Shown here in pieces: positions 1,326 through 29,211 of a stretch of DNA of 64,000 nt. The notes under the pieces are model-generated. The model was not told where the DNA came from and ran no database searches. It saw only the letters and a program-made list of their open reading frames with translations. Position 1 is the first letter of the stretch. Every line of letters begins with the position of its first letter. Both the position numbers and the translations under genes were made by a program. Source of the DNA: Lachnoclostridium sp. An76 (GTDB taxonomy: Bacteria; Bacillota; Clostridia; Lachnospirales; Lachnospiraceae); the NCBI RefSeq assembly GCF_002161355.1, contig NZ_NFHL01000011.1, forward strand, positions 1-64,000, in the 5' to 3' direction.

Positions 1326-1362
1326 AAAAAGCGGGGTGTGCGGAAAGGTACATCCCGCTTTT
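1326..1362 (+). terminator. Terminator-like stem-loop after the 53-aa gene
   Basis: AAAAGCGGG near 1326-1335 pairs with CCCGCTTTT at 1354-1362, around a loop of about 18 bases. The right arm ends in a short T-run, as expected for intrinsic termination on the plus strand. Confidence 0.5.
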
Positions 1363-1395
1363 GTACAAAGTGAAAGGGTGATATAAAATGTGCAA

Positions 1396-1429
1396 GGGGT
1401 CAGACCCCTCTGAAGAGGGGTCTGACCCC
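1396..1429. repeat. Double palindrome GGGGTCAGACCCC, copy 1
   Basis: GGGGTCAGACCCC (1396-1408) and its exact complement GGGGTCTGACCCC (1417-1429) are separated by 8 bases. Each 13-mer is itself an odd palindrome, so the DNA can fold as one long hairpin or two small ones. The same unit with a different 8-base spacer occurs at 22660-22693. The flanks TGCAA on the left and ATTGG on the right are also shared. Confidence 0.8.
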
Positions 1430-1463
1430 AATTGGTCAAGCTGTCAGAATCTTCTGAAATTGA

Positions 1464-1676
1464 TCAGCATCCGCATCCATTGCTGCCGAATCCGCCGCAG
1501 CAGCAGAGCAGAAGGATGATCCACAGGCAGCTGTCGTTGCCGCATCCGTTGCCGCCAAATGTGTTGCCGCCGCATCCGCCGCAGCAGCAGAGCAGGAGAA
1601 TGATCCACAGGCAGGAAGACATTCCGTTTCCATTGTCGCATCCGCATCCACAGTTTGTAGCAGTTAAATCACTCAT
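1464..1676 (-). CDS. Cys-rich small protein with duplicated hydrophobic segment, 70 aa
   Basis: The ATG at 1676 is preceded by a clear GGAGG. The 70 residues contain two near-identical halves, each with the string SCLWIILLLCCCGG followed by a Gly/Asn/Cys tail. Each half offers a short hydrophobic stretch of about nine residues running into three consecutive Cys, and the N-terminus is also Cys-rich (CGCGCD). Similar proteins are sometimes labelled chorion-like high-cysteine proteins in gut Clostridia; their function is unknown. Membrane association or metal binding is possible from composition alone. Confidence 0.7.
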   Translation of the reverse strand: MSDLTATNCGCGCDNGNGMSSCLWIILLLCCCGGCGGNTFGGNGCGNDSCLWIILLLCCCGGFGSNGCGC

Positions 1677-1824
1677 GTTAAATCCTCCAATTAGGTTATT
1701 GTTTACAGTTTTATAGTATGCAGAGCGTAAAAAGTGGTTACCGCATTAGCAAAGATCAGGGAAAAGTGGCTGTGACGGACAATAATCGATGCAGGAGAAT
1801 ATTCTGATTAAAAAGGGATTTATT

Positions 1825-2742
1825 ATGAGATGGGTAAAACAGACGGTAAGTTATTGGTGTGATGATATAAAATCAGGGAAATGTCTGGGAAAGGGGGTCA
1901 CGGTCGCGGTACTTGACACAGGGTTATCTGCCCATCCGGATCTGGAAGGGCGTACAGCCGGTTTCAGGGATTTTGTCGGGAATTCGATGAAATGCAGTGA
2001 TGACAGCGGACACGGGACCCATGTGGCGGGGATCCTTGCGGGAAGCGGCAGAGTGTCGGATGGCCTGTATGCGGGAATGGCTCCGGAAGCATCGCTTCTT
2101 GTGGGCAAGGTGCTGGACCGCGAGGGGAATGGCAATGTGGAAAATGTCATAGCAGGGATCCGGTGGATCCTGGAACAAAAAGATAGGTATGGAGTGCGGA
2201 TCGTGAATATCTCAGTGGGCACGCAGCCGGATCTCGGGGAGTATCAGAAGCGCCGGTTTTTGGCGGCAGTGGAGGAGTTATGGGACAGTGGGCTTGTGGT
2301 GGCAGTGTCCGCGGGAAATTACGGACCGGGGGCGGGGAGTGTGGCTGTGCCCGGCACAAGCCGCAAGGTAATTACAGTGGGGGTCCCGGATACGGAGCTT
2401 CCGCCCGTGCAGAGACGCAGGAAAAATGTAAATTATTCCGGAAGGGGACCGACAGGGGAATGTGTGGTAAAGCCGGACGTGTTTGCCCCGGGGACCGGAG
2501 TCATAAGCTGCAACGGCAGATACGGCCGTCCCGGCGAACATCCGTACACGATGAAAACAGGCACATCAATGGCAACCCCGGTAGTTTCCGGAGCGGTGGC
2601 GTGCCTGCTGTCCAAATACCCGGATATGACAAATGTAGAAGTGAAGCTGCGGTTAAGGGAAGCATGCGTAAGGCTGCCGGGAACCGGCTGCGGATGGGGG
2701 ATGCTGAACGTGGCGCGGCTTTTAAATGACAACCTTGGATAA
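1825..2742 (+). CDS. Subtilisin-like serine protease (S8 family), 305 aa
   Basis: This is a serine endopeptidase with the full S8 triad: Asp31 in AVLDTGL, His63 in DSGHGTHVAG and Ser248 in GTSMATP. There is no signal peptide or propeptide, and the length matches intracellular subtilisins, so a cytoplasmic or unconventionally exported role is likely. I chose the ATG at 1825 because AAAAAGGGA lies seven bases before it; an in-frame ATG at 1789 has a poor site. It seems to be a single-gene unit. The substrate is unknown. Confidence 0.85.
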   Translation: MRWVKQTVSYWCDDIKSGKCLGKGVTVAVLDTGLSAHPDLEGRTAGFRDFVGNSMKCSDDSGHGTHVAGILAGSGRVSDGLYAGMAPEASLLVGKVLDREGNGNVENVIAGIRWILEQKDRYGVRIVNISVGTQPDLGEYQKRRFLAAVEELWDSGLVVAVSAGNYGPGAGSVAVPGTSRKVITVGVPDTELPPVQRRRKNVNYSGRGPTGECVVKPDVFAPGTGVISCNGRYGRPGEHPYTMKTGTSMATPVVSGAVACLLSKYPDMTNVEVKLRLREACVRLPGTGCGWGMLNVARLLNDNLG

Positions 2743-2817
2743 AAATGACACAAAATCATCTGTGCGTGAGTGATCAGAAAATCCAAACCGCCTGTCCTTA
2801 CTGCCGAAGTTATCAGA

Positions 2818-3504
2818 CTATGGAACAGGCGGTTTTGTCAAAGGATCAAGTCCTTTCTGTTCTTTGAGCAAAATGCGGTTCCGCTCATATTCGATCACGC
2901 CGTCCTTCTGCATTTTGGAAAGCTCATTGCACATGGCGCTGCGGTCCACATTCAGATAGTCCGCCAGTTGCTGGCGGTTGTACGGGATCAGGAAGGAACT
3001 GCTCCCGGTCCGTTTGGCGCATTCCGAAAAATAGGACATCAGCCGCCCGCGGATGGATTTGGAACTGGTATGCAGGATCCTCTGGGAAAGCTGGAGGCTC
3101 TTGTGGGCACAGACAGTCAGCAGATTTCGGACAAGCCTTGTGTGAAATGGGCAGGCATTAGTACAGGTGGCCAGGATGCTGCCCGCATTCAGAAACAGTA
3201 CGGAAGTATCCTCCGCAGCAGACACCGTAACGAGCAGCGGCTGCCCCGGAATGCAGGCATATACTTCGGCGAATACGGAACCGGGCGCAGCATTCCCTAA
3301 AATACTGGTATTGCCCCAGATATCGCTGCTGGAGATCACAGCCATACCGGACAGCACGATCCCCATATTTTCGGTAATACTCCCTTCGGAAAGGATGGTT
3401 TCTCCTTTTCGAAAATTGCGCTCCGCAGCATTCAGGCAGTCCAAAAGCGTTGTGATCTCCGACTTTTCCAGTCCCCGAAACAGTTGTGTGTTGGCCAGAT
3501 CCAT
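2818..3504 (-). CDS. Crp/Fnr-family regulator, 228 aa (HcpR-like by context)
   Basis: The N-terminal two thirds form a cyclic-nucleotide-binding-type beta-roll (KGETILSEGSITENMGIVLSG). The C-terminus holds a Crp-type winged helix with NRQQLADYLNVDRSAMCNEL as recognition region, near residues 170-190. No N-terminal Fnr-type Cys cluster is present. The gene is divergent from an Fe-S protein gene and hcp, the arrangement of HcpR-type regulators that respond to nitric oxide or hydroxylamine. A 16-bp perfect palindrome lies between the divergent starts. The effector cannot be read from the sequence. Confidence 0.8.
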   Translation of the reverse strand: MDLANTQLFRGLEKSEITTLLDCLNAAERNFRKGETILSEGSITENMGIVLSGMAVISSSDIWGNTSILGNAAPGSVFAEVYACIPGQPLLVTVSAAEDTSVLFLNAGSILATCTNACPFHTRLVRNLLTVCAHKSLQLSQRILHTSSKSIRGRLMSYFSECAKRTGSSSFLIPYNRQQLADYLNVDRSAMCNELSKMQKDGVIEYERNRILLKEQKGLDPLTKPPVP

Positions 3505-3517
3505 ATTTTTTCTCCTT

Positions 3518-3533
3518 TGTTGTTATAACAACA
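3518..3533. promoter_or_regulatory. 16-bp palindromic operator candidate
   Basis: TGTTGTTATAACAACA is a perfect palindrome in the space between the regulator gene and the Fe-S gene. On the plus strand a TATACT (-10) lies at 3555-3560. If transcription starts about seven bases after it, the palindrome centre lies 41.5 bases upstream, the class II activator position for Crp/Fnr proteins. It also lies 14 bases from the regulator's own ATG, so autoregulation is likely. Confidence 0.6.
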
Positions 3534-3595
3534 GATATTCATTTAAAATTATATTATACTGTGCCCGAAAACACAAGAAAAAGGAGAGATTGAAC

Positions 3596-4237
3596 ATGAT
3601 CCGTAAGATCATTCAGATTGACGAAGAAAAATGCAATGGATGCGGGGCCTGCGCCGAAGCCTGTCATGAAGGGGCTATCGGCATGGTAAACGGGAAGGCA
3701 AAGCTCCTGCGGGACGATTATTGCGATGGTCTGGGCGACTGCCTGCCAACCTGCCCAACCGGCGCGATTTCCTTTGTGGAACGGGAGGCAGCTGCTTATG
3801 ATGAAAAGGCTGTCCAGGAAAATATGAGGAGAAAGAACGGACAGGATCTGTCCTATGCTCCGCTGGGAGCAGGGTCGCAGCTGGGGCAGTGGCCCTGCCA
3901 GATCAAGCTGATCCCGATCAACGCCCCCTGCTTTGACGGAGCCAGATTGCTGATCGCAGCGGATTGCTGCGCCTACGCCTACGCCAGAATGCACGGGGAT
4001 TTTATGCGCGGGAAGATCACGCTGATCGGCTGTCCAAAGCTGGACGGGATTGATTACAGTGAAAAGCTGACCCAGATCATTCAAGATAACAATATCCAAA
4101 GCGTGACCATCGTGCGGATGGAAGTACCCTGCTGCGGCGGCTTGGAATCAGCCGCTAAGAGAGCGCTGCAGGCAAGCGGAAAATCCATCCCCTGTGAGGT
4201 GGCCACGATCTCGGTCGATGGGAAGATCCTGGGATAA
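3596..4237 (+). CDS. 4Fe-4S protein linked to Hcp, 213 aa
   Basis: This is probably an electron carrier or partner for the downstream hybrid cluster protein. Cys13, 16, 19 and 23 form a standard CxxCxxCxxxC cluster. The second site has Cys43, Cys49 and Cys53-Pro but Leu46 where a Cys is usual, so it may hold a three-Cys cluster. The C-terminal domain has further Cys pairs (ADCCAYAYA, VPCCGGLES). The ATG at 3596 follows AAGGAGAG. An upstream in-frame extension exists but covers the operator region and is not used. hcp follows after 71 bases. Confidence 0.8.
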   Translation: MIRKIIQIDEEKCNGCGACAEACHEGAIGMVNGKAKLLRDDYCDGLGDCLPTCPTGAISFVEREAAAYDEKAVQENMRRKNGQDLSYAPLGAGSQLGQWPCQIKLIPINAPCFDGARLLIAADCCAYAYARMHGDFMRGKITLIGCPKLDGIDYSEKLTQIIQDNNIQSVTIVRMEVPCCGGLESAAKRALQASGKSIPCEVATISVDGKILG

Positions 4238-4254
4238 AATGAAAGGAACAAGCC

Positions 4255-4290
4255 GTTATATTAACAAAAAATCTATATAGTTTCTATTAT
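4255..4290 (+). promoter_or_regulatory. hcp promoter with operator-like half-sites
   Basis: GTTATATTAAC (4255-4265) contains the half-sites GTTA and TAAC, also seen in the palindrome at 3518-3533 but here 3 bases apart instead of adjacent. It overlaps a possible -35 TTAACA (4261-4266), which is followed after 18 bases by TATTAT (4285-4290). This would let the divergent Crp/Fnr protein control hcp separately from the Fe-S gene. The spacing difference weakens the match. Confidence 0.4.
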
Positions 4291-4308
4291 TTATCATGGA
4301 GGTCAGAT

Positions 4309-5949
4309 ATGAAAGAAAAAATGTTTTGCTATCAGTGTCAGGAAACGGCGGGGTGCAGGGGGTGCACCGTGTCCGGCGTATGCGGGAAGAAGCCCGATGT
4401 GGCGGCCATGCAGGATCTGCTCGTCTATGTCACAAAAGGAATTTCGGCTGTTACAACTGCGCTGCGTCAGGAAGGCAAACAGGTATCTGCGGAGATCAAC
4501 CATCTGATTACCCTGAACCTGTTTACTACCATTACTAATGCGAATTTCGACAGGGAGAGTATTGAGGCGAGGATCCGCGACACACTCACAGAAAAGGAAG
4601 CTCTGCTGGCGCGGGTGGCAGATCCGTCCACCCTGCCCGAAGCCGCCAGATGGGACGGCTCCGGAAACTGGGAAGAAAAGGCAGGAACTGTCGGTGTTCT
4701 TTCTGAAGAAAACGAGGATATCCGCTCTCTGCGGGAACTGATCACCTACGGCCTGAAGGGTCTGTCCGCCTACGCGAAGCACGCGAATGTCCTGATGAAG
4801 GACGACGGTGAGACAGATGCCTTCCTTCAGCGGGCGCTGGCGGCTACGCTGGATGACAGTCTCAGCATGGAGGAACTGATTGCCCTGACGATGGAAACCG
4901 GAAAGTACGGCGTCTCCGGCATGGCTCTGCTGGACCGGGCCAACACGGAAGCCTACGGAAATCCTGAGATCACAAGGGTGAATATCGGCGTCGGGAAAAA
5001 TCCCGGTATCCTGGTTTCCGGCCACGACCTGCGGGATCTGGAAATGCTGCTGGAACAGACGCAGGGAACCGGAGTGGATGTGTATACCCATTCCGAGATG
5101 CTCCCCGCCCACTATTACCCGGCGTTCAAAAAGTATCCTAACTTTATCGGAAACTATGGGAATGCGTGGTGGAAGCAGAAGGAGGAATTCGGATCCTTCA
5201 ACGGTCCCATCCTGATGACCACAAACTGCATCGTGCCGCCTTCGGACAGCTACAGGGACAGGCTCTATACCACCGGCGCGGCCGGCTATCCGGGATGCAC
5301 GCATATCCCAGGAGAGATTGGGGAGCAGAAAGATTTTTCCGCCGTCATTGAGCATGCAAAAAGATGTGCCGCCCCCACTGAGATCGAAACGGGAGAGCTG
5401 ATCGGCGGATTTGCCCACGCGCAGGTCCTGTCTCTGGCGGATCAGGTCGTTGAAGCGGTAAAAAGCGGTGCCATCAAAAAGTTCGTTGTCATGGCGGGCT
5501 GTGACGGCCGGGCTAAGAGCCGGGAATACTATACCGGGTTTGCAAGGGTGCTGCCGAAGGACGCTGTGATCCTGACAGCCGGATGCGCGAAATACAAATA
5601 CAACAAGCTGGATCTGGGCGATATCAACGGCATCCCGCGGGTCCTGGATGCCGGACAGTGCAATGACTCCTATTCCCTGGCTGTCATTGCTTTGAAGCTG
5701 AAGGAAGTTTTCGGTCTGGATGATATCAACGACCTGCCCATTGTCTACAATATCGCATGGTACGAGCAGAAAGCGGTCATCGTCCTGCTGGCGCTTTTGC
5801 ATCTTGGCGTAAAAAATATCCATCTCGGTCCCACTCTTCCGGCATTTTTAAGCCCCAATGTGGCGGCGGTCCTGACGGAGAACTTCGGTATCGCGGGAAT
5901 TGGCACTGTGGAGGAGGATATGAAACTGTTCTTTGGCGCGGAGCATTGA
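4309..5949 (+). CDS. hcp: Hybrid cluster protein (Hcp, hydroxylamine reductase), 546 aa
   Basis: Hcp reduces hydroxylamine or nitric oxide species with a hybrid Fe-S-O cluster in the cytoplasm. The N-terminal cluster ligands are visible as Cys7, Cys10, Cys19 and Cys25 (CYQCQET then CTVSGVC). C-terminal hybrid-cluster segments [23 protein letters not shown] and [10 protein letters not shown] follow in the usual order. The length of 546 aa is typical. GGAGG lies ahead of the ATG. It is the last gene of the stress locus, and its neighbours point to nitrosative stress defence rather than nitrogen assimilation. Confidence 0.93.
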
Positions 5950-12816: not shown

Positions 12817-13662
12817 ATGCATTTTCAATGGTATCCCGGGCATATGACAAAGGCCCGCAGGATGATGCAGGAAAATATAAAGCTGATCGACCTGATCATT
12901 GAGCTGACTGATGCCAGGATCCCGCTGAGCAGCAGGAATCCGGATATCGATGAGCTGGGAAAGAATAAGGTGCGCCTGATCCTTCTGAATAAGGCGGATC
13001 TGGCGGAAGAGGCAGCCAGTGATGAATGGATCGAGTATTTCCGTGGGAAAGGCTATTCTGCGGTGAAAGTGAATTCGAAAAAGGGCGGCGGCATGAAGTC
13101 GATCCAGTCGGTCATCCAGGAGGCATGCCGGGAAAAGACAGAGAGAGACCGCAAGAGAGGGATTTTAAACAGACCAGTGCGCGCGATGGTAGTGGGGATC
13201 CCGAATGTGGGGAAATCCACTTTTATCAATTCTCTTGCAGGAAAAGCGTGCGCCAAGACTGGGAACAAGCCGGGGGTCACAAAGGGGAAACAGTGGATCC
13301 GGCTGAACAAAAACGTAGAGCTTCTGGATACACCGGGCATCCTCTGGCCGAAGTTCGAGGACCAGGAGGTAGGGCTGAAGCTGGCATTCATCGGTTCCAT
13401 CAAAGATGAGATCCTCCAGACAGAGGAGCTGGCTGCTGAGCTGATAAAATTCTTAAGCGCCGGGTACCCGGGCGTCCTGGAGGAAAAATACAGCATTCCG
13501 GCAGTGGGGGATGCCTACGAGTGCCTGAAGGATATCGCTGAGAACAGGCACTGCCTTGTGCGCGGGAGCGAGCTGGATACGGAAAAAGCCGCATCGATCC
13601 TGCTGGATGATTTCCGGGGAGGAAAGCTGGGGCGCATTACTCTGGAAAGGCCGGAAGCTTAA
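12817..13662 (+). CDS. rbgA: Ribosome biogenesis GTPase RbgA (YlqF), 281 aa
   Basis: RbgA is needed for late assembly of the 50S subunit. It is a circularly permuted GTPase: LLNKADLAEE (G4) near residue 49 precedes the P-loop GIPNVGKST near 128 and DTPGILWPKF (G3) near 173. The N-terminus FQWYPGHMTKARR is the family signature. It lies between the two signal peptidase genes and just ahead of rnhB, as in other Clostridia. Confidence 0.94.
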   Translation: MHFQWYPGHMTKARRMMQENIKLIDLIIELTDARIPLSSRNPDIDELGKNKVRLILLNKADLAEEAASDEWIEYFRGKGYSAVKVNSKKGGGMKSIQSVIQEACREKTERDRKRGILNRPVRAMVVGIPNVGKSTFINSLAGKACAKTGNKPGVTKGKQWIRLNKNVELLDTPGILWPKFEDQEVGLKLAFIGSIKDEILQTEELAAELIKFLSAGYPGVLEEKYSIPAVGDAYECLKDIAENRHCLVRGSELDTEKAASILLDDFRGGKLGRITLERPEA

Positions 13663-24187: not shown

Positions 24188-24470
24188 GCAGCCCGTGAGC
24201 GAGATGGAGCGAAGCGAAATCGAGCTGCATGGCATGAGCCAGACGGCGGAAAGAGCAGCCCGTGAGCGAGATGGAGCGAAGCGAAATCGAGCTGCATGGC
24301 ATGAGCCAGACGGCGGAAAGAGCAGCCCGTGAGCGAGATGGAGCGGAGCGGAATCGAGCTGCGTGGCGAGAGGCGGACGGCGGGAAGAGCAGCCCGTGAG
24401 CGAGATGAAGCGGAGCGGAATCGAGCTGCATGGCGAGAGCCGGACGGCAGGAAGCGCAGCCTGATGGCTG
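24188..24470. repeat. 67-bp tandem repeat array, four units plus a partial
   Basis: Units start at GCAGCC at positions 24188, 24255, 24322, 24389 and (partial) 24456, an exact 67-base period. The core is GTGAGCGAGATGGAGCG then AATCGAGCTGC. Units 1 and 2 are nearly identical; units 3 and 4 diverge at a few sites. Because 67 is not divisible by 3, no single repeating peptide is encoded, and the open frames here are unlikely to be genes. Confidence 0.8.
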
Positions 24471-24507: not shown

Positions 24508-24538
24508 TTGACTGTATACCAGTTATATACCTTAAGAT
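24508..24538 (+). promoter_or_regulatory. MerR-type promoter with 19-bp spacer and central dyad
   Basis: TTGACT (24508-24513) and TAAGAT (24533-24538) are separated by 19 bases, the overlong spacing on which MerR activators act by DNA distortion. The spacer holds GTATA-N7-TATAC (24514-24518 and 24526-24530), a dyad in the position MerR proteins occupy. It drives the operon that begins with the MerR-FtsX fusion gene, after a leader of about 100 bases. Confidence 0.7.
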
Positions 24539-24647
24539 ATCCCCATACTCAGACAGAGTGTTGCCCCGCCTGGAAGCAAGAAGAAATATCATAGTTTCTT
24601 TCTTTAATGCGCATGCCAGGTAATACAAATGCAAGGGAGGTGCAGGC

Positions 24648-26690
24648 TTGAATACAAAGCAAGTAGAAGAGCTGACAGGGATGTCCCGGCAGAACATCCG
24701 CTATTATGAACGGATGGGGCTTCTCGAGCCGGCGAGGGAAGACGGGAATGCCTACCGGGATTATTCGGAAGAAGATATCAGGAGACTGAAACTGATCAAG
24801 ATGCTCAGGATGCTCGATATGTCTCTGAAAGATATAGATGATATAATAAATGGAAAAGTTTCTTTAAAGTCTTCTGTAAAACACCAGAGAGAAAATCTGC
24901 AGACCCATCAGAAACAGCTCCAGGCGGCAATCGATGTCTGCGCCAGCATAGGCAGAGAAAAAGGCGAGGACCTGGATGTAGACACCTATCTGAGGCGCAT
25001 GGAGGATATGGAGCGCAGCGGCGGCGTTTTCGCCCGGTTTGTGGACGACTATAAGCAGATAGTCCAGGACGAAGAAGAACGCAAATTTTCTTTTTATGCA
25101 GACTTCCCGGTAAACACTCCGGCGATGCTAGAAAAGGCGCTCCGTGAATATGCCTCAGAGCGGGGGCTCCGGTTCCATATGGAAAAAAGAGGAAAATATC
25201 CGGAATTCAGGCTTGGGGACCACACATACACCGCTGTCAGGCTGCTGGAAAAGAAAAAAGGAAACAAAGAGGATCCGGCGGTACGCGTTATCTGTGAGCG
25301 GAAAGAGAAGGTCCCGGGCGGCAGGGACATGAAGATCCCGGCTAAGAGGCGAAGGATGCTCCGGGGGATCCATATTCTGGCGACCAATATACGCAGGCAC
25401 AGAAACAGGACATTGCTGAACCTTGTACTCAGTGCGCTGGCGGTCACAGTGCTGTCATTTTATCTGGGAAATATCCGGAGCACAGAGCAGATACTGGAAA
25501 ACGCGCCGGAATCTTACGAGATCACAGGGGAAATCTGGAACGTGTGCGGCGAGTCAGACCATGGATTATTTATCTCCCATCAGGTGCTGGAAGATCTGTA
25601 CAGATCAGAACGGATCGGCGATATCGCGGAAAGTGCCGAGCTGATGGGGAATCTGTCTGATGGGATGGATCTGTCCGGCGGGATGGATCTGTCTGGTGGG
25701 ATGGATTTGTCCGGCGGGATGGATCTGCCCGATGGCGAAACACCGGCTGGCAGCTCATCGGCTAAGGGCGGTGAAGCGCCGGATACGGTATCCCTGCTGG
25801 GGATCAACAGGACAGAGTGCGTCCAGGGATTGTCGGAGGAAGATATTACGTGGGAGAGCGGCCAGGATAAAACCGGAGAAGAGTGGGAAGGATTCCTGAA
25901 AAGCAGTTCTGACTGTATCCTGAGTGAGGCATTTGCAGAAAAAACAGGGCTGTCTGCGGGCGATACGGCAGAGTTCAGCCTGGCGCGTTACTCACAGGGG
26001 CTGGCAGGAGTGACCCTGGAGAGACAGGAGTTTGAGCCGGAAGAATTTCACATCGCGGGCATTTATAAGGAAGATCCCGACAGGGAAGAGGAAAATCCGG
26101 ATATCCTGCTCCCTCTGGACGCGGTGAAGGCAATCTATGAGAAAAATGACATTGTCTATTTTGCGTCCGCGCTTTCTTTCCGAGTGACAAAGCCCATGGA
26201 GCTGAATGAAGTAAAAGAGGAGCTGAAGGATGCGGGACTGAAAGAGATCATATACGGGTCGCCCAGGTCTTACGCCGGGATCGGACTGAAGCTGACGGAT
26301 ACAGAATTTATCCATTCCACGGAGAGCGCGGACCGCAGCCTGGCGCTGCTGGAGAGTTTCCTGCCATTTATGTTCGTCATCATAGCAGCAGCGGGGTATA
26401 TCATCCCAAGCCTTTTGTTCCAGAACAGGCGGGAGGAATATGCGGTCATGCGCGCTCTGGGCACGGGGAGATGCTTCTGCAGCCTGCTGTTCTATATCGA
26501 GCACATCATACCCGCGGCAGCGGGGGCACTGGCCGGAGCGGCGGCTGGGATAGCGCTGGGAGCTGTGGATCCTGTGAGCGGGGCAGTTGTCTGGGGACTC
26601 TACCTGGTATTTTATATGCTTGGTGCCGGGGCGGCGATGTGGCGGTTTGGAAGATTCAGTATTGCGGCTGTGTTGTCACACAGAGATTGA
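24648..26690 (+). CDS. MerR DNA-binding domain fused to FtsX/MacB-type ABC permease, 680 aa
   Basis: Residues 1-70 are a MerR winged helix (KQVEELTGMSRQNIRYYERMG, then AYRDYSEEDIRRLKLI), and 75-125 a likely coiled coil. Residues 145-220 form a small domain I do not recognise. TM1 lies at 255-274, an outside domain at about 278-565, and TM2-TM4 near 570-591, 617-640 and 644-664. NRREEYAVMRALGTGR after TM2 is typical of FtsX permeases. The outside domain has five GMDL repeats at residues 339-360. The TTG start at 24648 follows AAGGGAGG. The frame is unbroken from HTH to last TM, so this is not a sequencing join. It is followed by an ABC ATPase and a second permease. Confidence 0.85.
   Translation: MNTKQVEELTGMSRQNIRYYERMGLLEPAREDGNAYRDYSEEDIRRLKLIKMLRMLDMSLKDIDDIINGKVSLKSSVKHQRENLQTHQKQLQAAIDVCASIGREKGEDLDVDTYLRRMEDMERSGGVFARFVDDYKQIVQDEEERKFSFYADFPVNTPAMLEKALREYASERGLRFHMEKRGKYPEFRLGDHTYTAVRLLEKKKGNKEDPAVRVICERKEKVPGGRDMKIPAKRRRMLRGIHILATNIRRHRNRTLLNLVLSALAVTVLSFYLGNIRSTEQILENAPESYEITGEIWNVCGESDHGLFISHQVLEDLYRSERIGDIAESAELMGNLSDGMDLSGGMDLSGGMDLSGGMDLPDGETPAGSSSAKGGEAPDTVSLLGINRTECVQGLSEEDITWESGQDKTGEEWEGFLKSSSDCILSEAFAEKTGLSAGDTAEFSLARYSQGLAGVTLERQEFEPEEFHIAGIYKEDPDREEENPDILLPLDAVKAIYEKNDIVYFASALSFRVTKPMELNEVKEELKDAGLKEIIYGSPRSYAGIGLKLTDTEFIHSTESADRSLALLESFLPFMFVIIAAAGYIIPSLLFQNRREEYAVMRALGTGRCFCSLLFYIEHIIPAAAGALAGAAAGIALGAVDPVSGAVVWGLYLVFYMLGAGAAMWRFGRFSIAAVLSHRD
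25652..25731 (+). repeat. 18-bp coding tandem repeat (GMDLSG)
   Basis: A run of GGGATGGATCTGTCCGGC-like units, 18 bases each, encodes DGMDLSGGMDLSG and so on within the outside domain of the MerR-FtsX protein. Third-position differences between units (GGC, GGT) show that the array has aged while keeping its peptide. Confidence 0.8.
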
Positions 26691-26699
26691 GAGGTAGAT

Positions 26700-27371
26700 A
26701 TGGAACGGATCAAAGTAGAATCAGTGAGTTATTCTTATCAGAATAAATATCAGACCGTGGAAGCAGTCAGGGATGTCACCTGTTCATTTGAGACAGGCAG
26801 GCTGTATGTGATCACAGGGGAGTCGGGAAGCGGCAAGAGTACATTCCTGTCCCTGCTGGCAGGGCTGGACTGCCCGGGCAGCGGGAGGATCCTTGTGGAC
26901 GGTGATGATATAAGCCATACAGACAGGGATGCATACCGAAGGGAAAAAGTGGCTGTGATCTACCAGGCTTTTCATCTCTTCCCCCTGCTCACTGCCCTGG
27001 AAAATGTCATGTATCCTCTGGAGATACGGGGAATGCCTGGAAAAGAAGCGAGGCGGCAGGCAGAGGCCTGTCTGGAGGAGGCCGGGGTCAGCAGGAAGTT
27101 ATTCGGACAGTATCCGAAGATGATGAGCGGAGGAGAGCAGCAGAGGACCGCAGTGGCGCGCGCGATCGCATCCGGCGGGAAGATCCTGCTGGCGGACGAG
27201 CCTACCGGCAGCCTGGATTCGGAAAATGAGGAAAAGATCGTGGATCTCCTCTTGTCTCTGGCGCATGAGAGGGATTATACAGTCATCATGGTCACGCACA
27301 ACAGAGAAATCGCGGAGAGGGCGGATGTGCGTCTGGTCATGAAGGACGGAAGGATGACAATGGAACAGTGA
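26700..27371 (+). CDS. ABC transporter ATP-binding protein (LolD/MacB type), 223 aa
   Basis: This is the cytoplasmic ATPase of the three-gene system. It has Walker A GESGSGKST near residue 40, the Q-loop YQAFHLFPLLTALENV, signature MSGGEQQRTAVARA, Walker B KILLADEPTGSLD and the H-loop VTHNREIA. The LADEPTG string and its size mark the MacB/LolD/BceA class that works with FtsX permeases by mechanotransmission. It starts 9 bases after the fusion gene and ends 10 bases before the next permease gene. Confidence 0.92.
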   Translation: MERIKVESVSYSYQNKYQTVEAVRDVTCSFETGRLYVITGESGSGKSTFLSLLAGLDCPGSGRILVDGDDISHTDRDAYRREKVAVIYQAFHLFPLLTALENVMYPLEIRGMPGKEARRQAEACLEEAGVSRKLFGQYPKMMSGGEQQRTAVARAIASGGKILLADEPTGSLDSENEEKIVDLLLSLAHERDYTVIMVTHNREIAERADVRLVMKDGRMTMEQ

Positions 27372-27381
27372 GGTGTTGAGG

Positions 27382-29211
27382 ATGACATTCTACTATAGTA
27401 TAAAACAGATGCGCCGGAGTCCTCTGAAAAGCCTGCTGTTCGCTGTCCTCATCGCCGTGTGCGCCTTCTGCCTTTCGCTGGGAGGAGCTCTGTGGTACAT
27501 GGGGAGCAGCGGCTTTCAGGATTTCGACGGGCTGTATACCACCATCGGGACAGTTGAGCAGAAATATGAAGGCACAGAGGTGCGCTCGAGCTGGGATCCG
27601 GAAACACAGGCATACGAGTATTACAGCGGGGGATATTACGGAGAATGGATCCCGGAAGATGTCCTGGATTTTAAAGGGGCGGACTATATTTTGAAGCCTA
27701 GGCAGCGCCCTTATTTCGGAGCATATATCGAAGACCTGTATCATGGGATCGGGAGCGCGGACATGGGAGTCGTGGAAGCCACGCCGCTCAAGACGGGAGC
27801 AATGTACCCTTCTCTGCCCATGCGCGTGACACGCGTGCTGGAGGGGACGATGCAGGAAGGGGAGATCTTCTATCTCTGCGACCATCAGAGCGAGGAACCG
27901 GCCATCCTGGAGTCGGGAAAAACGTATGTGATGCAGCTTTCCATGTTCGGGACAGCGCATGGGCCCAATGTCCAGGCGGGAGAACAGACCATGGAGTACC
28001 TTCTCTCTTCAGGGATCGCATCCACTCAGTACACGATCGACATGGAGCCTGTGTATGACCCCGTCACGGAAGAGGACCGCTGGTATGATGAGGTGACGGA
28101 TGGATTTTATGAGACTGAGAGAGGGAAGCGCTGGCTTGCGCTCAGCAGTTACCAGGATTACAGCATGCGCACGATCCCGGTCCAGCCCACGGACGGGACG
28201 AAGCTGCTCATGTATTTCTATAACGGGGAAGCACAGATCACAGAGGGGCGCGATATCACAGAAGAGGAATATAAGGACGGCGCAAAGGTCTGCCTGATCC
28301 CTGAAATGCTGGCGATGAGGCTGGGAAAGAAGGTCGGAGATACACTGGCTCTGCCGCTTTATTATGCTGATTATTCCCGGGCGGTAGGGGACGCCTTCAT
28401 GCTGGGCACCCGCAGTCATGTCTCTGTGAATCTCCTGAATGCGGAAGGAGAGATATATCAGATATTCAATGAGCAGGAGTACGAGATCGTCGGGCTCTAT
28501 ACGGCGGAAGATAAGGGATCGGGCAGTTATTCCGCAGGGGAGTATGAGGTGGTCATCCCGTGGAACGCGGTCCCGGAAAACTGCTGGGAAGATAATATCG
28601 CAGGGGCAGGACCCATGAAAGGAGCGGATACGTCATTTCAGATCCCCAACGGGACAGTGGAAGAGTTCCGGGAAGCGTGGGAGGCACTTGGCATTGATGG
28701 CCTGGAGATCCGCTTTTATGATATGGGATACACTCAGCTGAAGGACAGCCTGGAGAACCGTCAGCTCATGTCAGCGATCTTTCTTCTCAGCGGGGGAGTG
28801 ATGGCAGTCCTGATCTTATGTTTTTTCTCAAGCCTGTTTATCACCGGGCAGAAAGAGCGCATCGCTGTGGAAAGACTGATGGGACGGACAAAACGCCAAT
28901 GCGCGTTATCCATTCTGTCCGGGATGATTGTCTTAAGCGCGGCAGGATGTATTGCAGGGAGCGCAGCGGGCTGGCTTGCCTCGGGAAAAGCTGCGCAGGA
29001 AGCTGGGGATACCCTGGAGTTTGACCGGACTTACAGTGATAATACGATCGCAAATACAGAGCCGGAAGACACAGGAGAGCCTCCGGGAGCAGTGCTGCCC
29101 TGTGTTACGGGAGGCGTGCTGCTGGCGGCATCGGCGGTGGTCTCCGGGGGATATATGCGGGCAGTGCTCAGGAAAGAGCCTCTGCGGATGCTGGGAGAGA
29201 TAGAGGAATAA
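27382..29211 (+). CDS. FtsX-like ABC permease, 609 aa
   Basis: This is the second permease of the operon. TM1 lies near residues 13-38 (LLFAVLIAVCAFCLSLGGALW) and a large outside domain near 40-455. Three C-terminal spans surround ERIAVERLMGRTKRQCALSILSG, the usual FtsX cytoplasmic loop. It lacks any DNA-binding domain, unlike its partner. I chose the ATG at 27382, with GAGGTG before it, over the GTG at 27373. It probably forms a heterodimer with the MerR-FtsX protein. Confidence 0.85.
   Translation: MTFYYSIKQMRRSPLKSLLFAVLIAVCAFCLSLGGALWYMGSSGFQDFDGLYTTIGTVEQKYEGTEVRSSWDPETQAYEYYSGGYYGEWIPEDVLDFKGADYILKPRQRPYFGAYIEDLYHGIGSADMGVVEATPLKTGAMYPSLPMRVTRVLEGTMQEGEIFYLCDHQSEEPAILESGKTYVMQLSMFGTAHGPNVQAGEQTMEYLLSSGIASTQYTIDMEPVYDPVTEEDRWYDEVTDGFYETERGKRWLALSSYQDYSMRTIPVQPTDGTKLLMYFYNGEAQITEGRDITEEEYKDGAKVCLIPEMLAMRLGKKVGDTLALPLYYADYSRAVGDAFMLGTRSHVSVNLLNAEGEIYQIFNEQEYEIVGLYTAEDKGSGSYSAGEYEVVIPWNAVPENCWEDNIAGAGPMKGADTSFQIPNGTVEEFREAWEALGIDGLEIRFYDMGYTQLKDSLENRQLMSAIFLLSGGVMAVLILCFFSSLFITGQKERIAVERLMGRTKRQCALSILSGMIVLSAAGCIAGSAAGWLASGKAAQEAGDTLEFDRTYSDNTIANTEPEDTGEPPGAVLPCVTGGVLLAASAVVSGGYMRAVLRKEPLRMLGEIEE

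Follow-up and report, generated by a model that had tools for sequence, protein, structure and literature searches.

The DNA considered here (the window) is a stretch of 64,000 nucleotides from Lachnoclostridium sp. An76, a member of the Lachnospiraceae (RefSeq assembly GCF_002161355.1, contig NZ_NFHL01000011.1, positions 1 to 64,000 of the forward strand). Its subject is a three-gene operon on the plus strand whose first gene joins a MerR-type DNA-binding domain to the permease of an ATP-binding cassette (ABC) transporter. An earlier note on this DNA, made from the letters alone, had described that gene as one unbroken frame of 680 codons, and so it is: the frame opens with a TTG at 24648, runs to 26690 with no internal stop and encodes a protein of 680 amino acids, preceded by a ribosome-binding site read from the sequence (GGGAGGTG, 24635..24642). 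The order of parts given in the note, a MerR winged helix and a coiled coil followed by a first transmembrane (TM) helix, an outside domain and three further helices in FtsX order, agrees with Pfam and hydropathy, and both halves exceed the Pfam gathering scores (MerR_1 and FtsX).

The winged helix (residues 1-68, 24648..24851; MerR_1, E 2.5e-19) scores 69.6 bits against a cut-off of 21.6, which places it in the MerR family; its matches in PDB are 3qao, CadR, CueR, MtaN and BmrR. It is followed by a MerR-type dimerisation coil (approximately residues 76-120, 24873..25007, boundaries set by eye), closed by a single cysteine, C98 (24939-24941), and by what we call the Mid domain (approximately residues 145-222, 25080..25313). 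The note had listed this last as a small unknown domain: a domain is indeed present, and neither Pfam nor NCBIfam matched it, but it is a conserved one, homologous to the Mid of a family of stand-alone MerR proteins. The fusion junction, placed on the window by eye from an alignment, falls at about 25356..25370, between the end of the MerR-Mid part and the start of a complete permease, PermA.

PermA (25413..26639) consists of TM1 (25413-25469), the outside domain, TM2 (26361-26417), a coupling loop (RREEYAVMRALG), TM3 and TM4. By hydropathy its four helices occupy residues 256-274, 572-590, 620-638 and 646-664, with 297 residues outside between the first and second, the helix order of type VII ABC transporters. 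The FtsX match covers residues 574-640 (E 5.2e-6); FtsX is also above the cut-off in the ortholog L040 and below it in L009 (20.8 vs. 25.5), and in both of these orthologs MacB_PCD is above its cut-off over the outside domain. Four of the 10 residues preceding TM1 are basic and the MerR domain is N-terminal, so that the DNA-binding end is predicted, from hydropathy only, to lie inside. With a DNA-binding domain and TM helices on one polypeptide, the protein has the build of a transmembrane one-component regulator. Within the outside domain there is an in-frame 18-bp tandem repeat (25651-25735, about 4.7 copies) encoding a DLSGGM-type stretch, which is six residues shorter in L005.

The two genes downstream encode, as the note had proposed, a MacB/LolD-type ATPase and a second FtsX permease. 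The ATPase (26700..27371, plus strand; Pfam ABC_tran) has LolD as its nearest NCBIfam model, below that model's equivalog cut-off (193 bits vs. 307.75), as it also is for MacB (164.5 vs. 966). Its motifs are intact; across the fused loci scanned, Walker A, signature and Walker B are found in 20/20 and the H-loop pattern in 19/20. PermB (27373..29211, plus strand) is a 612-residue FtsX/MacB-type permease (FtsX, E 1.5e-8; MacB_PCD, E 4.3e-6) with no credible match in a PDB search. The transporter-side matches (LolF, LolE, FtsX, YbbP, MacB) are mostly weak.

Upstream of the fusion gene lies a MerR-type promoter (24508..24538, plus strand), in which a -35 TTGACT (24508-24513) and a -10 TAAGAT (24533-24538) are 19 bp apart around a dyad, GTATA-N7-TATAC (24514..24530), the predicted operator; the note's reading of this stretch was accurate. 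The arrangement is that of MerR promoters generally, with a 19-20 bp spacer and a dyad between -35 and -10, and it recurs in every fused upstream examined. The pattern TTGAC-N-N19-TANNNT occurs within 300 bp upstream in 23/23 fused rows, near-duplicates included; of 2000 random 300-bp stretches taken from the window, 10 have it. Among 13 hand-picked rows, majority counts average 11.4/13 over the 31-bp block and 7.6/13 over its 20-bp flanks, and the dyad has a mean symmetry of 5.0 of 8 pairs, above the mean of 2.3 and maximum of 3.5 in 5000 shuffles. The block begins anywhere from 53 to 140 bp ahead of the start codon, and its conservation is therefore its own. Directly upstream of the operon (24188-24461) are four tandem copies of a G+C-rich 67-bp unit; a similar element precedes the fusion in L007, and weaker relatives of its core, with 2 mismatches, are on two other contigs of the same genome.

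A search for the consensus site in seven genomes with the fusion or a remnant of it found the operon's own site to be the best genome-wide in 6/7, while total matches were about as frequent as with a reversed-pattern control. Together these results indicate that the regulon is mainly the operon itself; a wider regulon was rejected, the other matches being at about control level. That the fusion is an autoregulator directed mainly at its own operon is thus well supported by sequence. The start codon is conserved as well: TTG stands at the aligned start in 22/23 fused rows (starts assigned by alignment), and this near-universal TTG may keep the fusion protein scarce.

How widespread is the fusion? 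A contig search found it, as a single frame each time, in assemblies whose titles name Mediterraneibacter, Lachnoclostridium and Hespellia, the best segments being 97, 63 and 31% identical; overall, relatives are 31-98% identical to the window protein and come from several genera of one family. Of 58 genomes surveyed in the same genus, 13 (counting that of the window) have it whole and in one frame, while a further copy is split over two contigs (G682) and another is truncated (G618); in the family the count is six of 299 genomes (G000, G148, G104, G214, G163 and G036, again including its own). An order sample of 392 genomes held the window's own as the only whole fusion, plus the G618 remnant, and overlapping class (391 genomes) and phylum (398 genomes) samples gave none outside the family, with three candidates scored per genome, so that misses are possible.

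An artefact of assembly or frameshift, or two separate products from one reading frame, would be the most trivial explanation, and is so improbable that it was rejected. The only breaks in the frame that could speak for it are at contig ends (L006/L008, G682), but the frame is single in separate assemblies from several genera and is conserved family-wide. A separate permease product from an internal start was ruled out: in residues 151-263 no start with an upstream purine-rich stretch is common to the 20 full-length rows, and four of them (L007, L042, L146, L153) have none. Median dN/dS values of 0.127, 0.182, 0.144 and 0.149 for the four segments (51, 21, 18 and 98 usable of 190 pairs) indicate purifying selection on every segment of the fusion, the outside domain included. 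The fused proteins also group together, 21 rows forming one clade in a tree of the MerR part (support 96/85; its position among the stand-alone MerR-Mid proteins moderately supported) and 20 rows grouping with weaker support in a tree of PermA (91/72).

Selection on the outside domain bears on a reading in which the permease does no sensing. The fusion might be a constitutive tether, holding the operon at the membrane so that the transporter is made and inserted locally, with autoregulation by protein level and no ligand input. An operator directed mainly at its own operon would serve such a device, and the TTG start would suit a low set level. A tether, however, would leave the purifying selection on the outside domain and the intact ATPase motifs to be accounted for, and good transcription from MerR promoters with 19-bp spacers requires an active conformer; we regard this reading as improbable.

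The stand-alone MerR-Mid proteins (253-321 amino acids), which are found in Lachnospiraceae and relatives, share the helix-turn-helix (HTH) domain, coil, Mid and promoter type of the fusion. They differ from it at their end, where one or two TM helices are predicted (L126 shows none), and in having no adjoining FtsX-type operon in the stand-alone loci scanned, so that no split version of the fusion was seen among these. Fusion and stand-alone gene coexist in some genomes (G674, G639, G645), and G273 has a stand-alone gene and an unfused transporter on different contigs. When the junction is mapped, most of the stand-alone matches, seven of nine, extend as far as model position 237-241 (the other two to 195-201), while two permease-only matches start at 229-230, as if a short anchor had been exchanged for a complete permease. 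These endpoints suggest that the fusion arose when a membrane-anchored MerR-Mid protein swapped its anchor for a permease, the promoter coming along with the MerR half. Other MerR proteins with C-terminal membrane parts have the same promoter pattern in 4/8 cases. The genome of the window itself contains a further MerR fused to a membrane domain (L004, C1:792393; an open frame of 517 amino acids behind its own TTGACT-N19-TATACT promoter), whose membrane part, judged by eye, we take to be RDD-type; the order sample has further frames of about this length that match in the MerR part only.

A further explanation concerns the stretch around the junction. Regulated proteolysis could free a soluble MerR-Mid fragment to act on the promoter, as happens with other membrane-held factors, and in its favour the linker that joins Mid to TM1 (roughly residues 223-245) is variable in both length and sequence. 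The alignment, though, has two invariant arginines at the junction (R234, R235), and no conserved cleavage motif was seen in it by eye (no motif search was run); we give proteolysis little credence.

A more serious rival places the input in the cytoplasm: Mid, or the conserved cysteines C98 and C216, would sense a cytoplasmic ligand, metal or redox state, and the permease would serve only as an anchor that equalises the amounts of regulator and transporter. The 15 aligned stand-alone proteins combine the same HTH, coil and Mid with no permease, and L126 shows not even a TM helix. In these proteins C98 is present in 14/15 and C216 in 14/15, as against 11/11 fused rows for C98 and about four in five for C216. 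NmlR comes closest among the NCBIfam models, at a score far under its cut-off. No other segment of the fusion, on the other hand, is as weakly conserved as Mid (median identity 56%), and the YPEF motif of Mid is lost in L009. Of the columns conserved in the stand-alone family, the fusion retains 22/28 in the HTH and 8/9 in the coil (residues 76-140) but only 10/23 in Mid; this would fit, weakly, an input shifted from Mid to the permease, although stronger conservation of an HTH is to be expected anyway. Overall we consider a purely cytoplasmic input unlikely, though less so than either tethering or proteolysis.

What the transporter half does can be approached through its unfused relatives. 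PermB matches at E 1e-40 or better occur in 13/299 family genomes, 10 of them below 1e-200; six of these 10 are in fused operons and four are unfused (G028, G077, G273, G170), as are the three weaker matches (G127, G161, G202). Directly upstream of the unfused relative in G028 are genes for a histidine kinase and an OmpR-type regulator, by analogy the arrangement that the fusion would replace. The neighbors elsewhere are a divergent HTH_3 gene (G077) and, upstream, an unrelated deaminase gene (G273); in G170 the upstream stretch on the contig is only 345 bases. In L131 of G254 (1346-4519), PermB and PermA form a single chain of 1057 amino acids adjoining the ATPase gene, which suggests that the separate permeases pair as a heterodimer.

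The clearest hint of a substrate comes from G710, where an unfused PermA, ATPase and PermB (L177, 6035-15973, minus strand) are part of a CcpM-type radical S-adenosylmethionine (SAM) peptide cluster. Two of its proteins, a CcpM-type radical SAM maturase and one matching TIGR04066, score above the respective cut-offs, and an acyl-carrier-related protein scores below its own; a subtilase and an ABC exporter are also encoded there. A candidate precursor peptide of 60 amino acids (12941-13120, minus strand) is cysteine-rich by eye and matched no NCBIfam model. From this one clear case, a peptide is our best guess for the substrate of the fused transporter as well.

Where does such a protein stand among known systems? 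With the MerR pump regulators MtaN, BmrR, CueR and CadR it shares the winged helix, the dimerisation coil and the 19-bp-spacer dyad promoter. Those regulators are soluble and separate from the pump, whereas in the fusion the effector half is the pump's permease. With MacB, LolCDE and FtsEX, the type VII ABC systems, PermA shares TM1, a large outside domain, TM2-TM4 and the FtsX domain (and, in its orthologs, MacB_PCD); here, in contrast, the two permeases are unequal and the ATPase is a protein of its own, and none of the MacB, LolCDE and FtsEX systems is known to have a DNA-binding domain.

In Bce modules (BceAB-BceRS), transporter activity is thought to control the module's own transporter genes, and BceB, with 10 TM helices, signals through a kinase dimer in a 2:1:2 complex (PMC10314905). 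The fused system differs in having four TM helices per permease and a DNA-binding domain in cis, and no histidine kinase or response regulator is among the window's four flanking proteins scanned; the likeness to Bce modules lies in the proposed mechanism and in the kinase and regulator upstream of the one unfused relative. BcrR, which binds DNA from the membrane and regulates the operon of the BcrAB transporter, is a protein separate from BcrAB (PMC3968067). The fusion, like BcrR and the transmembrane one-component regulators CadC and ToxR, is a membrane-bound DNA-binding protein, but BcrR is no permease. The fusion thus belongs to the MerR family and the type VII ABC fold, and to neither Bce modules nor BcrR. 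No such fusion appears in the parts examined of a survey of transmembrane transcription regulators (PMC10269533) or of a review of non-transport roles of ABC transporters (PMC7828314). A literature search for MerR-FtsX fusions and membrane MerR proteins found no report in the titles and abstracts listed either, which is weak evidence of absence because subscription papers were mostly outside its reach.

The most likely account of the locus is an autoregulated, perhaps peptide-linked transporter whose permease replaces the sensor kinase of Bce-type modules. In such a system the MerR half of PermA would sit on its own 19-bp-spacer promoter and hold it in a weak state, while PermA, PermB and the ATPase would assemble as a MacB/LolCDE-like exporter or extractor, perhaps for a peptide. 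The trigger could be substrate bound to the outside domain, or TM1 moved by ATP-driven cycling. The signal would pass from the basic stretch before TM1 through Mid and the coiled coil to the MerR dimer, which would untwist the spacer and so increase transcription of the transporter. Transport or ligand state would, in short, switch MerR.

That the locus is a self-regulating membrane transporter, its permease standing in for the sensor kinase and response regulator found beside the one unfused relative, seems to us an evenly balanced proposition. The note had suggested that the permease itself may be the transcription factor. What stands of this is a conserved fusion with a MerR-type promoter of its own and a regulon confined mainly to its operon, and the analogy with the relative next to a two-component system. 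In full, the proposal would be that substrate- or ATP-driven motion is passed along one polypeptide to a promoter-twisting MerR domain, a single operator linking two transporters at the membrane, giving need-based control with no kinase, diffusible signal or phosphate. We put it forward tentatively, as an idea with a somewhat greater chance of being wrong than right. The note's description of it as a one-protein version of Bce-type sensing is too simple, the transporter being the product of three genes and probably heterodimeric.

Several observations weigh against transport sensing by the fusion. The first is stoichiometry: a heterodimer would contribute one MerR domain per transporter and a DNA-binding dimer needs two, so that the dimer could form only across two transporters or between two PermA chains. 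The second is the promoter, since TTGAC-N-N19-TANNNT is also found near the start of 16/16 stand-alone MerR-Mid genes (in L126 the site falls a little inside the earliest possible start, and L122 and L123 hardly differ). These genes share the promoter type with no transporter, and the promoter is therefore no proof of transport sensing. The third is that C98 is kept throughout the fused rows. The fit of operator to operon is also imperfect: the own site in G148 has a degraded right arm with three mismatches and is bettered by another site with two, and G618 and G000 hold further weaker sites (a 2-mismatch site in G618; in G000 a 3-mismatch site, which precedes the MerR gene of L004). The L040 operon is followed, downstream of PermB, by a gene for a PRD/EIIA-type regulator, so that a second regulator is conceivable there. 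Finally, the G618 gene (L118, 7489-8805) ends in the outside domain, and the MerR-TM1 part and an intact promoter have been kept though most of PermA, and the ATPase and PermB at the locus, are gone; what is left is either a naturally occurring relic or a MerR-TM1 protein that is still used.

How a transporter reports its activity to a promoter is an open question that has been studied mainly in multi-protein Bce modules. A permease and a promoter-distorting domain on one chain reduce it to a single testable protein: the fusion would serve as a compact sensor module, and would allow a direct test of the way in which a regulator held in the membrane gets to its DNA. In these gut bacteria the pump may inform its promoter of its state with no intermediary, since one half of it carries the DNA-binding regulator that appears to control the pump genes. 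The evolutionary route suggested is the capture of a permease by a self-regulating MerR anchored in the membrane, which brought its promoter with it; a relative of the same transporter adjoins a two-component system.

The three-gene unit is kept together, and the identified flanking genes vary between genera. Even within the genus a fixed genomic place was rejected: a BPD-type ABC operon lies downstream in the window, L005, L008, L118 and L171 only, and is absent from the available stretch in L007 and L168 (one assembly), L169, L172 and L174, the contigs of L006, L170 and L173 ending too early to judge. Plasmid cargo was rejected too, no plasmid match having been found. On the upstream side, an SNF transporter gene is present in 11/11 of the same-genus loci scanned.

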